From NCBI RefSeq assembly GCF_000003605.2, contig NW_003149765.1:61471-117143 (forward strand): a stretch of 55,673 nucleotides of DNA. Direction: 5' to 3'. The notes below the pieces were generated by a model. That model saw only the letters and a list, made by a program, of their open reading frames with translations, had not been told where the DNA came from and did no database searches. The position numbers and the translations under genes are program-made. Positions 1-47,800 of this stretch are shown one piece after another (the stretch's first letter is position 1; every line of letters starts with the position of its first letter). This stretch comes from Saccoglossus kowalevskii. Its lineage: Eukaryota; Hemichordata; Enteropneusta; Harrimaniidae.

Positions 1-1010
1 TTTTGGCTTTGATTTTGGTGGGAAAAACGGCATGATTTTTTTTTCAAATCAAGAAATTAGTTATTTTTGGAAAGTAAACTGAGCATTTAAAGAATAATTT
101 AACACTGTTTACTGTGACAACAGCGCATTTGAAACAGAACATTTTCGCGTTGTTTTAATTTCGTTTTTATGGACTTACTGCGAAATTAAAAACCACGCTG
201 ATATTTTCTACAGTAGACTAAAAAGACATGTTTCAAGAGAATATAGACCGATTTCTTAAAAATTGTTAGAAACAAAACCAATTTTTTTTACATAAAAGCC
301 ATTCGTACAGTAACAGCGAGGGACTTCCGCGATCGCGTCCATCGCTACGAACCGGTAGTCGATCCGCCGGCGCCCAATTCACGATCATTACGTGGCAAAA
401 TTTCAACTTTGTCTGGCGCTTAATTGAGGTGTAAAATACAAAGTTTTTGTGGCACTGGCGCCTAATTGAAGGTGGCGCTTAACTGAAGACAAATACGGTA
501 TATCGTTTAAAAGTACAGTTGTACATTGAATGACACAGTGATATAAAAGTATGGCCCAGGGGTATGGCTTCCTCTCATATTTTTGCATTTGGTGGCGCAC
601 TTTCGGCGAGAGTCGGAAATCCGGAAACAGTCAACCGTTTCAGGATAGGTGGGCGTGGCTACAGCACGGGAAATATCTCAAATTTACTTGGATATGAGTA
701 ATCATTTTCAGCAAAAAAATCAATAATTGCCCATTTCAGTGGGGCACAGATCTAAAATGGGAAGCGTGTGGGTGGGCATTACACAGGCACTTTAATCCAA
801 AATTAAACAAAAAATTGATTATAGTAAATACTAGGTGTAAAATGTTGCACTAAAATTTGAGCAAGATTTATTTATTGCATTTAAAGCTGGAAATGTGATT
901 TGAAAGTTCATACATGTTAGGTCTGTAATATGGTTTTAAAGTAAGTATAATCATGTTTCATCTTGTGAAGGAAAAAAAGGTGAATTCATATTTAATGTAT
1001 ACTGTTTCAG
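1..1010 (+). other. Intron of MCM2 upstream of the first visible exon
   Basis: No exon was recognised here. The stretch ends in a pyrimidine-containing tract and AG directly before the first visible MCM2 exon. It contains three diverged copies of a ~17-nt motif around GGCGCYTAAYTGAAGG at 413-489. Confidence 0.6.
413..489. repeat. Three short imperfect repeats (GGCGCTTAATTGAGG type)
   Basis: Copies lie at about 413-429, 454-471 and 472-489, with one or two substitutions each. They are in the MCM2 intron. No function is visible; they may be a remnant of a mobile element. Confidence 0.5.
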
Positions 1011-8614
<7,604 letters not shown>

Positions 8615-22334: not shown

Positions 22335-22928
22335 TTATTTTTTATGCCACGATGGCAAAAATCCAAAACGTTTATGTTCTTTCTTTTTTGGACCAATGTT
22401 GATTGTGGTGTTATTTCCACCCAGGACCACAAAATTCCCTTTTCCAGAAACCTCGGCATAATTGGTGGTACTTGTCTTTTGTGAACTTTGGGTCATCATA
22501 ACATTGGAGTTGCTGCCAGAGGACGCAGCCTGAGCAGGGCTACCAGAACTAGAGTGTTCCTCTCGATGCTGCTCTACAGACAATATCTCGGCTTTTCCAC
22601 TGGCATCCTCTTGCACACCATGGTTCATTGTCTCACTCTCTGTGATGGTTGGGATTACGGTAGCATCTAACTTTTCAACCAAATGTGGGTATGGTTCAAT
22701 TAAAGCTGTGCGAAACGCCACATAAGCATTGTCCTTGGAAGATTTCTCAAGCATGTTCAGTAATTTGGAAACTCTGTCCTGGTTAGTTTTCTCTGCTTTA
22801 ATTCGTTCGTCATCGTCGGGATCAAACACAAAACTAGCAATCAGGTGATTAAGTACATATTTCACATCCAAGTCTCTTACTATCTCCACACGATTGACTC
22901 GAAGACGGTGAATATCCTCCGCATTCAT
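22335..22928 (-). CDS. CARD-domain adaptor protein with C-terminal RHIM-like motif
   Basis: A single-exon gene of 197 aa. I start at ATG 22928 (MNAEDIHRLRVNRVEIVRDL); an in-frame extension to 22967 begins with TTG and adds non-homologous sequence. Residues 1 to ~90 read as a caspase-recruitment domain. It resembles the CARDs of CRADD/RAIDD and apical caspases: amphipathic helices with RVNRVEIVRDLDVKYVLNHL, then KTNQDRVSKLLNMLEKSSKD, then AFRTALIE.YPHLVEKL. Residues ~95-160 are a Ser/Thr/Gln/Asn-rich linker without predicted fold. Residues 162-179 hold GKGNFVVLGGNNTTINIG, which resembles the RHIM amyloid core (hydrophobic-x-hydrophobic-G-x-x-N, then alternating hydrophobics), though the usual Gln is Val. 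The last 18 residues are basic (PKKKEHKR...SWHKK). There is no protease or death-effector domain. It faces FBXO7 head to head. Proposed role: a death-fold signalling adaptor able to polymerise. The CARD call is firm; the RHIM-like call is inference. Confidence 0.85.
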   Translation of the reverse strand: MNAEDIHRLRVNRVEIVRDLDVKYVLNHLIASFVFDPDDDERIKAEKTNQDRVSKLLNMLEKSSKDNAYVAFRTALIEPYPHLVEKLDATVIPTITESETMNHGVQEDASGKAEILSVEQHREEHSSSGSPAQAASSGSNSNVMMTQSSQKTSTTNYAEVSGKGNFVVLGGNNTTINIGPKKKEHKRFGFLPSWHKK

Positions 22929-23840: not shown

Positions 23841-24414
23841 AACTCCGTATAAGACTTCATAGAAGAACAGAAAAAATCGATATAAGTGACGAGGAACCAA
23901 CGGTACGGAATCTGAACGATGCCGTCGCTGTCGTTTTTGGGTAAGTTTCCTGGATCATGCGACGATATTCAAGTTGAAAAGTGAAACAACGTGCTCAAGT
24001 ACAGTGTAATGAAACAGAACTTTTTACACTAATGACGTGCTCTCCACTTCTTCATCCCTTGAATTTGGATAGTCCGCTCCTAGTACATATGCAAGTACTG
24101 TAATATGTTAGCTATTTTCACCAATTACCTTGGGTGGGTCATTTAAGTTCAAGGTCAGACTGACAGCATGTGTCAAAATAAGCCACATTTTTATCATGCA
24201 ATAAATGTACTTGTAATAGACCAAATGCAGCCTACTTTTAGATTGCAGATAGGATCATTCAATACAAGTCTAAACGGAAGGGATCCTCTTATAGGGGATG
24301 AAACCAAACTGTTGAAAGATTATGACATTGTATCAGGGAACCTGATAAGAGTTCTTTTGAATGCTGACGCAGCTGAAGCTGCAGATCTTTTACATCATCA
24401 CCACCACCAGCAGC

Positions 24415-41800: not shown

Positions 41801-44800
41801 ATAAATTTACGCAACACGCTTACAAAATTCGAAAATATATGAAAATTATGTAAGACAAGTTCTTTCGTTTTTATTTCAACTTTATTATGTCATTATACTC
41901 TCTGAATGCAATGCATCATGGTAGATTCCCGAATTTACAACGACAGTTACACTAAACTGGCATGCGTTCCACAGTCACTTAAGAATAACACGGTGTTAGT
42001 TGTTACATCCTAAGCAATTAACTTAAATTGCCGACGGAAACTGAGAATCTAAAGATCGACCACCTTTAGCACTCATTGAGTGGAGTCGTCACGTCTGATG
42101 TAAACAGTATGGATGGGAAGAAATACCAATGGGGGAAAACGAGTCAATGAGTTCATCCCCTGCCAGTCAGAATAGATCACATGTCATGAACAAATGGATG
42201 CAAACGAGTAGTCGTAAAATCGGTAGTAGGTCATTTGTTATCACCTGGAAAAGTAATCCTATTTGATCGGTGGATGAGGTAAAACGTAGCGGATGGGTTC
42301 CAGTTTTCAGTCGACAAGGCGTGGGAACGACTAAAATACAGACGTAAACATTGCAGGAGAGATGACGACACGTATGATGATGTTTTTTTTTTTGCATCAG
42401 TTAAAATTCACGTGGGTGTTTCGTAGCTTTTTAATTGCTGCGATGATCAACTTGATCTCCGCCAACATATGGTAGATTAATTCACGAGAAAACAGTATAG
42501 CAATATGAAATAACACGCCATTAGCAAATTTGACGAGTTTTCAACACATGATTTACTAGAACATAATCTTCAATCTAGCTAACGGGACAACAAAATTATT
42601 GTCAGAATATACTTTGCTATTAAATCAGTTGCACTTTGAATAAGCTAGATTACAGAGTAGCTACATTTCACTAATTTGCTAAAAAAAAATTATATGTTTC
42701 ACGCAGTATGCAAATAATTTCCCCATCTCACTCACTGCACTTAGCGGGATAAGATGAAAAGCTCATTTTATTTGTTCAGGTGTTAACATCGTTATCGCAT
42801 CTGTACTATTCACTGCTACTTATTGTTGATATCAATGACCGGTAGGAGCAATCTCAAGTTGTGGCGGATTCATTGCTTGTTAGTATCAATCCGCGGCTTG
42901 TAGTGGAAGAGGATACGTCTCAGGGGCCTCGCATCACTGAACACCGTTCTATCGGAAACCGCTGGAATTCATTGTAATCTTCCGAGTGAAAGCATACTCG
43001 GTTATTACTAGGTACGGTTAACTGAGTATAATACTAGTAGTAATAATCACCGTACTTTGAATTGTGCGTAAATTCTAGGTATATTCACTTATGAGTAGAT
43101 CTCAGAAGAACAGTGATGCATTCTTGCTCTCCGCATTTTCAAAATACATAAATTACTACGCATGCGTAGTAATTTATGTGTTTTGTTATGAAATTTGTGA
43201 CAATTTCCAAATAGTGTAATATATTAAAATCAGACCACAATGTACTCTTGATGGATGGATGTACGTGAAAGATGATATGCAGTTTGTGAACCAACAAACA
43301 TATTGCTATGGTTATACACATGTCGCTTGAAAACTTGGGTTGTGGTGATTATTGCACAAACTAGCGATGCATATTTTAGAGTATTACCTACAGCGTAAGC
43401 GCCCTAGTTGTCAGGCATTGAATTTCGTTTGAAACAAGCTATGCATTGTAAACGCGTTGTACACTTCGTATGGGAACCACATGGATTACGATGCGACGTA
43501 CAGACAAACGATTGGTAGTATATATTCAGTTTATGTAGAACAATTGAAACTTGAAATTATCTAGTTAAAGCTTGGTAACGTCTCAGTCTGTTCTAGTTGG
43601 TCTTCACAACAGCCAAAGTCGCCATCTTTGTTTATATGAGTCCCATAACACACGCATGCGTGACGCAATGACCACCGCTCTTTAAGGAAGGCAAGACGCG
43701 ACAACATGTAAGAAAAAAAAAACGCTGCTTTGCTTCGTGCATAATTTGGAAAACCTGTACATTTAACTCAATTTGACAATTTTGTATTTCAAATACTTGT
43801 AACTGGAGTGACTATGTATGTCTCTTTCCCAATAGCCGCAACTGCCCTTAGCCACAGTTTCAAATCATTCTTACGACCTGGTGGCATGTGTAGCTTATTT
43901 GATTATGGCTTCGTTATGTTCAGTACATAGACACACATATCACTGAGTATGCAAATAGTAACAAGCAAATCGCATTATATGTCCCCACATCAGTGAGTTG
44001 TCATGGGCGACTGAACACAGAAGGACACCGTGAACACGCTCGTCAAGTATACGAGATATGAGTGTATTGCATGAATAGGAACAACAAACAGCTTTGTAGC
44101 GACGACGTCAGGACGGACGTCTGCACAGTGTATGATTCCCAGACCACTGTGGATCCCATTAGTGTCACAGCGTACAGCCCAGAAGCATATTTTGTTGCCA
44201 CCGATGAAAAGAAATATCAAACAATACGTCTTAGCTCAATAAACAAAACGTGACACTCTACTTGTGACGGTACTCATATGCCTTTTATTCCAGTTGCTCA
44301 CGTGATTCATGCGAGTCACATAGCAACACATAGCAAGATATCGCTGTCTACAACATGGATCGAGAACCTGCATGATAATAACGATAGATTTATTTGATTA
44401 AATCTCGCACACAGGGTTTGGATGCTCCTGGTCTTGAGTTTAATGCTTTTAAATACATAACTATACCAATATTTTCGATCGATATCAATGGTATACGTTC
44501 TGAGAAACCTGAACCGGGTCTTGACAATTGCTGATGAAATGCAGCACTTATTTGGACACGTTTCAAGTGACAATGATTCACATTTCATGAGCTATATATG
44601 TTTTCTGTGCCAAGGACACACTCCATAAAGAACCTCGTATACTAAGAGAGCATATGTCTCATCATTCAGATATATTGCACAGTGGCTTTCATTGAAGAGA
44701 AATCGCACACTTTGATCGATGGAAACAGTATGACACACAATTAATGAGGCACTGATAGCCGATTTTCATCAATGGCAACTTGACAATAGAGTGTTAGCAG

Positions 44801-47800
44801 TGACAATTTGACAACCGAGTGTTAGCAGTGACATTTGACAAAACACTCACCAATGACATTTGACAAAACATTCACCAATGACAATTTGACAAAACATTCA
44901 CCAATGACAATTTGTCAAGACTTTCACCAGCAACAATTTGACAAGACTTTAACCAATGACAATTTGACAACCGACTGTTACCAGTGACAACTTTCAAGAC
45001 TTTCATCAGTGACAATTTNNNNNNNNNNNNNNNNNNNNNNNNNNNNNNNNNNNNNNNNNNNNNNNNNNNNNNNNNNNNNNNNNNNNNNNNNNNNNNNNNN
45101 NNNNNNNNNNNNNNNNNNNNNNNNNNNNNNNNNNNNNNNNNNNNNNNNNNNNNNNNNNNNNNNNNNNNNNNNNNNNNNNNNNNNNNNNNNNNNNNNNNNN
45201 NNNNNNNNNNNNNNNNNNNNNNNNNNNNNNNNNNNNNNNNNNNNNNNNNNNNNNNNNNNNNNNNNNNNNNNNNNNNNNNNNNNNNNNNNNNNNNNNNNNN
45301 NNNNNNNNNNNNNNNNNNNNNNNNNNNNNNNNNNNNNNNNNNNNNNNNNNNNNNNNNNNNNNNNNNNNNNNNNNNNNNNNNNNNNNNNNNNNNNNNNNNN
45401 NNNNNNNNNNNNNNNNNNNNNNNNNNNNNNNNNNNNNNNNNNNNNNNNNNNNNNNNNNNNNNNNNNNNNNNNNNNNNNNNNNNNNNNNNNNNNNNNNNNN
45501 NNNNNNNNNNNNNNNNNNTTTCACCAGTGACAAGTTGACAACCGACTGATACCAATGACAATTTTACAAGACTTTCACCAGTGACAATTTGACAGGACTT
45601 TCACCAGTGACAAGTTGACAACCGACTGATACCAATGACAATTTGACAAGACTTTCACCAGTGACAATTTGACAGGACTTTCACCAGTGACAAGTTGACA
45701 ACCGACTGATACCAATGACAATTTGACAAGACTTTCACCAATAACAATTTGAAAACTGACAGTTATCAGTGACAATTTAACAACCGACTTTCACCAATGA
45801 CAATTTGACAAGCGACAGTTACCAGTGACAATTTGACAACCGACTTCACCAGTGACAATTTGACAACCGACAGTTAGCAGTGACAATTTTACAAGACTTT
45901 CACCAATAACAATTTGACAACCGACAGTTAGCAGTGACAATTTTACAAGACTTTCACCAGTGACAAGTTGACAACCGACTGATACCAACGACAATTTTAC
46001 AAGACTTTCACCAATAACAATTTGAAAACCGACAGTTAGCAGTGACAATTTTACAAGACTTTCACCAGTGACAATTTGACAACCGACTTTCACCAGTGAC
46101 AATTTGACAACCGACAGTTAGCAGTGACAATTTGACAGGACTTTCACCAGTGACAATTTGACAACCGACTTTCACCAGTGACAATTTGACAACCGACAGT
46201 TAGCAGTGACAATTTGACAGGACTTTCACCAGTGACAAGTTGACAACCGACTGATACCAATGACAATTTGACAAGACTTTCACCAGTGACAATTTGACAG
46301 GACTTTCACCAGTGACAAGTTGACAACCGACTGATACCAATGACAATTTGACAAGACTTTCACCAGTGACAATTTGACAGGACTTTCACCAGTGACAAGT
46401 TGACAACCGACTGATACCAATGACAATTTGACAAGACTTTCACCAATAACAATTTGAAAACTGACAGTTATCAGTGACAATTTAACAACCGACTTTCACC
46501 AATGACAATTTGACAAGCGACAGTTACCAGTGACAATTTGACAACCGACTTTCACCAGTGACAATTTGACAACCGACAGTTAGCAGTGACAATTTTACAA
46601 GACTTTCACCAGTGACAATTTGACAACCGACTTTCACCAGTGACAATTTGACAACCGACAGTTAGCAGTGACAATTTTACAAGACTTTCACCAGTGACAA
46701 TTTGACAAGACTTTCACCAATGACAATTTGACAACCCATTTTCATTAGCGACATTTGAAGCACTCTTGATTTAATTTACATTATAAAATAAACACATATT
46801 AAATACACTACGCCCATCATTATACGCCGTGTATTTATTTATCCAAAAATCGAATTAGTTATATTATGGCTACCCCATACCGTAGTAAGGTCATGTTCAC
46901 CCGGCGTCCAGTTCACCCGCACCACATTAAAATGATGCTCTTTGAGTATAGCAACTATACCTTTCTAATCAGACCATACACATCCGCACCCAAAATATGA
47001 TGGAATCTTCCGGTGGTATACAGACAATTATTTATAAAATTGTCCACTGATACTGAATTTACAAGCCGGATTCAGATGTAAGAGGAGATTTTGAAAATAA
47101 AACGCTCTACTGAAAGTCTGATCTGTTAATACTATTATTAGCTGTCATTGATGAGGACTGGGCGGCTCACAGTTGTTGTGAAAATCCGTCTCCGATGGAA
47201 ACTATTCTGTCTTGAACCAAGATGAGTTATGTGGCATTTAATTTACGATTATGTCTACATCGATAGATGTTGAAATATAAATGTCAGAATTGCGGTAAAA
47301 ACAGATTATTTTGTTCTTTAAAGGTCAAAGGTAATTAGCATTATATATGGTGTACTTTTCATGTAATCTTCTCTTTCTGTTCACATTAGTATCGATTTCA
47401 AGTGGCACACAGAAAAAAGATTGTCTTCAACATCTGAGTATTTCCGTTTCCCCAAGTGTTATCGATTGTCACCTCTGCTCAAGGCTATGCGTTCTTAAGA
47501 AGAAAATTGGTAATCTAAAACTGAACTTAGTGGGAAACAAATCTCATTCAATTTTCTTGAGAAGTTCGCCCAAATCGTCCGGTATTAAGTTTTCGTTATT
47601 GATCATAATAGGAGGTTTGAACTGAATTGGCATTACATGGTAATGTCTCCATACTCACATAGACTCATGACATTAAGATACAGAAAAGGAGAAACACGAA
47701 GTCGACATGTAGCCCGCGTATGAATTTCGTGCGAACAAACAAAAATTTGACACCAGTTGTATACCCCCGTGTGTGTGTGTGTGTGTGTGTGTGTGGGGGG

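Follow-up and report, generated by a model that had tools for sequence, protein, structure and literature searches.

A small APAF1-type CARD protein with a RHIM-like string in its tail in Saccoglossus kowalevskii

The locus and its open reading frame

The window, i.e., the whole stretch of 55,673 nucleotides of Saccoglossus kowalevskii DNA analysed here (contig NW_003149765.1, positions 61,471 to 117,143), contains on its minus strand an uninterrupted open reading frame (ORF) for a protein of 197 amino acids at 22335-22928, which runs from an ATG at 22928 to a stop at 22335-22337 and to which further exons may belong. The gene encoding this CARD protein is real. It lies near MCM2, SDR and FBXO7-like genes: of the ten open frames of the window that were compared with Pfam, three gave MCM pieces and one an SDR match, the latter below the cut-off (E 0.0012), and the neighbours that we take to be FBXO7-like and WIF1-like EGF genes were assigned by reading, not by profile. 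Pfam recognised no NLR-type domain in these ten open frames, and no RNA families or tRNAs were found in the window. A large minisatellite lies at 44776-46758; its repeat unit measures about 26-28 bases, with a higher order of 52-54 and 78-82 bases, and a gap of 500 N lies within it.

Along the protein (all coordinates on the minus strand), the CARD domain occupies residues 7-87 (22668-22910), as given by Pfam PF00619, by phmmer against the PDB and by comparison with an APAF1-like CARD of the animal's own genome. It is followed by a linker rich in Ser, Thr and Gly at residues 88-164 (22437-22667), defined by composition and codon score, then by the RHIM-like or β-arch string NFVVLGGNNTTINIG at residues 165-179 (22392-22436), defined by pattern tests and lacking a Pfam match, and finally by a basic C-terminal end, PKKKEHKRFGFLPSWHKK, at residues 180-197 (22338-22391), read from the translation. 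The site to which the first-pass annotation had drawn attention, 22335-22487, was correctly placed and corresponds to the final 50 codons of the ORF and the stop. Its description of the linker as Ser/Thr/Gln holds for Ser and Thr and hardly for Gln, which is modest: residues 89-197 contain 16 S, 10 T and 10 G versus 5 Q. The tail is probably disordered.

Codon use, scored against neighbouring exons that had themselves been assigned by reading, is coding-like in the CARD as well as in the tail. The tail scores 0.210 in frame versus -0.078 ± 0.088 for intergenic DNA, where the maximum over 3000 windows is 0.170, and the linker (residues 89-160) reaches 0.321 in frame. Residues 181-197, comprising 17 codons only, score -0.186 and are not coding-like when taken alone.

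The CARD and its relatives

That the product is a CARD protein, as first annotated, is borne out by the intact ORF and by a match of Pfam CARD to residues 7-87 of 197 with 53.5 bits, versus a cut-off of 23.9 (E 2.6e-14). CARD_2 also matches (E 2.3e-8). A match to TED_2 (E 0.0054), which lies below the cut-off of that family, was disregarded. Among the 39 PDB sequences listed by phmmer, the 13 at the top are all APAF1, the best with E 2.6e-7.

Searched with the Pfam CARD model, the genome (572,110,611 bases in 4830 contigs) yields 21 matches at E ≤ 0.1, of which 19 are above the cut-off, the window gene being third. In tblastn against the 20 other CARD loci, five reach E ≤ 1 (L020, L030, L032, L029, and L036), and, with L030 overlapping L032 and L029 overlapping L036, these five amount to three places. 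The L030/L032 pair is part of an APAF1-like gene at L038, positions 167-3281 on the plus strand, where a CARD in two open frames precedes exons that match NB-ARC (E 1.9e-9 and 1.4e-11). Downstream of these exons lie frames that we take, by reading, to be retroelement-like (reverse transcriptase/RNase H; L038, 8550-9901, and the start of L039).

With its two CARD exons joined at a junction that we guessed, the APAF1-like CARD aligns to the window CARD with a score of 140 and 35 of 79 residues identical (44%); the human APAF1 CARD scores 104. The best single open frames among all 20 other CARD matches are L020 (111), L021 (99), and L032 (93), and the APAF1-like exons taken singly, L032 and L030 (69), both fall below L020 and L021, so that the APAF1-like CARD leads its own genome only with the exons joined, in a comparison in which other split CARDs, such as L036/L029, entered as single open frames. 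Judged by sequence similarity, the CARD of the window is of the APAF1 type, with APAF1 nearest on the joined reading and L020 not far behind.

Other CARD loci of the genome are of different make. At L024, 1438-3246 on the plus strand, a CARD stands ahead of a Ser/Pro-rich open frame that extends for more than 600 aa within a single exon and in which Pfam recognised no further domain at E ≤ 0.01. The CARDs of L028, L034, and L037 presumably belong to RIG-I-type receptors, judging by reading; in L028 and L034, CARD_2 scores above CARD in Pfam.

An intron splits the APAF1-like CARD between its two open frames (L032 and L030), and the window gene lacks that intron. A functionless copy of a CARD, retroposed or decaying, would agree with such a single uninterrupted ORF, and also with the result that none of nine poly(A) hexamers occurs within 600 nt downstream of it. 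We nevertheless hold this to be very unlikely: the ORF is intact, its codon use is coding-like, and the gene is not a recent copy of the APAF1-like CARD, since the identity between the two is only 44%.

The C-terminal string compared with RHIMs

The tail had been proposed to end in a RHIM-like amyloid motif of a variant kind, with Val in place of the usual Gln. The core tetrad of RHIMs is published as (V/I)Q(V/I/L/C)G (PMC9444067); the tetrad of NFVVLGGNNTTINIG reads VVLG, which departs from the published form and shows the Val just where it was said to be. Past the tetrad, GGNN places an Asn three residues beyond the tetrad Gly, as in RHIM, and I176 and I178 alternate. These two isoleucines presumably stand one position further out than the hydrophobic residues of RIPK1 and of mammalian RHIMs.

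Profile searches gave nothing for the tail. Three fragments of the tail were compared with Pfam, and none of them reached E ≤ 10 with any family; neither NCBIfam nor the PDB sequences contained anything similar. PADLOC gave a single chance-level match (0.027) in the CARD part and none for the tail. The RHIM model itself (PF12721), one of the checks suggested for the proposal, does not match the tail, and when it was run over the whole genome, 15 candidates were scored and two places reported, with the window motif absent from the matches. The first place scores 20.1 bits (E 0.49), 0.1 above the curated cut-off of 20, in an open frame of 50 aa; the second has E 5.45 in an open frame of 45 aa. 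Both have an in-frame TGA and a weak score, and we read both as chance. A search for paralogues, also suggested in the first-pass annotation, found none for the tail: compared with their own genome, the final 50 residues of the protein hit nothing but their own position. What stands of the RHIM-like motif is a loose likeness of the core; the Gln, a profile match and a paralogue are missing. RHIM profile models may miss divergent motifs, so failed membership of the family leaves room for RHIM-like action.

Is the string more than chance?

Three patterns were counted in 200,000 shuffles each of the tail and of the whole protein, with figures that flatter the motif because the patterns were written after it had been seen: the loose pattern [VIL]x[VIL]GxxN is found in 1.3% of shuffled tails and 2.7% of shuffled whole proteins, the extended pattern, with two further hydrophobic residues, in 0.09% and 0.32%, and the strict tetrad in 0.66% and 0.78%, respectively. 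The 197-aa protein has the loose and the extended pattern, without the strict tetrad. Read in all six frames, the window has 19 instances of the loose pattern, four of the extended pattern and five of the strict tetrad; the counts of 19 and 4 include the NFVVLGGNNTTINIG motif, and two of the 19 and one of the four span a stop codon. An instance of the loose pattern within the FBXO7-like frame, LQIGSFN at window position 24243 on the plus strand, probably resembles the RHIM core by accident and serves as a warning on this pattern.

Among the 21 CARD loci, scanned over 3.1-3.2 kb each on both strands in open frames of at least 45 aa with introns not followed, the extended pattern is confined to the window gene; the strict tetrad appears once, as IQLG in L031, in a 60-aa frame of uncertain coding status. 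The aggregation profile of the tail has three peaks, one of them at residues 166-169; it is not the highest, as residues 92-93 and 191 score above it. Taken at the level of sequence, the chance tests suggest a motif that is uncommon and not overwhelming, i.e., they are suggestive, not strong.

It is quite possible that we are dealing with a CARD-only regulator, a decoy or adaptor of APAF1 or of caspases, in which the tail is a disordered extension and the RHIM-like string either a coincidence or a short β-strand docking peptide. The missing profile match and tail paralogue agree with this, and so does the result that the Pfam RHIM model turned up no convincing partner genome-wide. The loose pattern, which about 1% of tails of this kind would carry by chance and which has 19 instances in the window's six frames, own motif included, points the same way. 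The rarity of the extended pattern in shuffled tails and whole proteins sits less well with it, and so does the report of CARD plus RHIM for a protein that has bivalve relatives (PMC12452177).

Similar strings in viral and prokaryotic contigs

A DNA-level pattern for GNxVV(hydrophobic)GxNNT finds one stretch in viral contigs and five in prokaryotic genome contigs, where by our own arithmetic, with equal base frequencies, about four would be expected by chance; at the DNA level, the counts are thus about those of chance. A longer, exact pattern of the motif is absent from the viral contigs. By reading, we take three of the six similar strings (L005, L011, and L013) to lie in YadA-head-like β-roll repeat proteins, one (L009) in a secreted-glycosidase-like protein and one (L010) in an Asn/Gly-rich protein, with no assignment for L012; no NLR-type protein was recognised among the six. 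Since half of them appear to be YadA-like β-roll proteins, the string is not RHIM-specific, and it fits a tight arrangement of β-turn and strand. A match of the motif to an unrelated folded domain had been named as counting against the RHIM-like proposal, and the β-roll look-alikes, read by eye, touch on this point.

A search with the whole protein gave 12 pattern stretches in the viral contigs and two loci there, each matched over 26 residues (residues 49-74) and on phage-like contigs, which we put down to chance. In the prokaryotic genome contigs, 30 such stretches included no relative.

Precedents in the literature

The layout first described, one death-fold domain and a tail with no enzyme domain, is confirmed in the ORF. 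It is not new as a combination of CARD and RHIM, if the annotations of BiIV1_006R are right, because this protein of a cockle iridovirus (bivalve iridovirus 1), of which another bivalve iridovirus encodes an orthologue, is annotated with both and is similar to bivalve sequences (PMC12452177). In the open-licence literature, to which our search was confined, we found no paper dedicated to a host protein of this kind.

The same annotation, extending to the bivalve relatives, speaks for reading the gene product as a genuine RHIM protein of an invertebrate, with a tail that would co-assemble with RHIM proteins of the animal (RIPK-like, TIR-like or receptor-like) and so link amyloid to CARD signalling. 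The canonical tetrad is, however, lacking, and the two genomic places that could supply a partner are weak and each contain an in-frame TGA. Furthermore, among RIP kinases, one study assigns RHIM and CARD by SMART to vertebrate RIPK1-3 only (PMC9573974), and another describes RIPK1 of ambulacrarians and amphioxus as having no RHIM (PMC11507063). We consider a genuine RHIM improbable.

Interpretation

The reading that we put forward, tentatively and at somewhat less than even confidence, is that this single unbroken ORF encodes a small CARD adaptor of the APAF1 type, with a tail that may self-assemble. CARDs assemble with CARDs, and the likely partners would therefore be CARD proteins: from the families involved, APAF1, a caspase or other CARD proteins of the animal. 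The CARD would dock on, or compete for, the CARDs of the apoptosome/caspase branch or of another CARD receptor. Beyond the ORF, the CARD and its likeness to APAF1 CARDs, which are observed, we infer an amyloid step, less well supported than the docking, in which residues 165-179 would stack as a β-arch resembling RHIM, PP and BASS3 motifs, and in which this β-arch would cluster copies of the protein and lower the threshold for CARD assembly. An amyloid role of the tail is possible and unproven, and the protein may act either as an adaptor or as a decoy.

The fullest version of this proposal is a minimal CARD-amyloid adaptor, in which the APAF1-type CARD and the Gln-less RHIM-like motif would nucleate a helical CARD assembly and a cross-β fibre, respectively, and thereby connect amyloid signalling with the apoptosome branch, as a host counterpart of the bivalve iridovirus gene with CARD and RHIM. 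We think this rather unlikely. If the tail were a working amyloid motif, death-fold filaments and RHIM-type amyloid could be joined in one small adaptor free of any enzyme, the Gln of the RHIM core would be dispensable, and a host gene would be at hand for comparison with the bivalve iridovirus protein. If the tail is not amyloid, the gene encodes an ordinary APAF1-related CARD adaptor.

Comparison with known systems

With the RHIMs of RIPK1, RIPK3, TRIF and ZBP1 (PF12721), the string shares the core hydrophobic-x-hydrophobic-G-x-x-N, and alternating hydrophobic residues follow it here as well, presumably one position further out; it differs from them in its VVLG tetrad and in the missing profile match, and the ORF has none of the kinase, TIR or Zα domains of RHIM proteins. 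The fungal PP and bacterial BASS3 motifs are described as related to RHIM (PMC7885112, PMC12261475), and they, too, are short motifs with a hydrophobic core. They are, however, associated with NLRs, whereas here the companion is a CARD, and no NLR gene was recognised in the frames examined. BiIV1_006R and its bivalve relatives come closest in layout, with CARD plus RHIM in one protein, a likeness at the level of annotation (PMC12452177). Unlike APAF1, the ORF of the window has no NB-ARC and no intron, and consists of the CARD alone with its tail; at the same time, APAF1 is of the same domain family and provides both the best PDB match and, with the exons joined, the best match in the animal's own genome.
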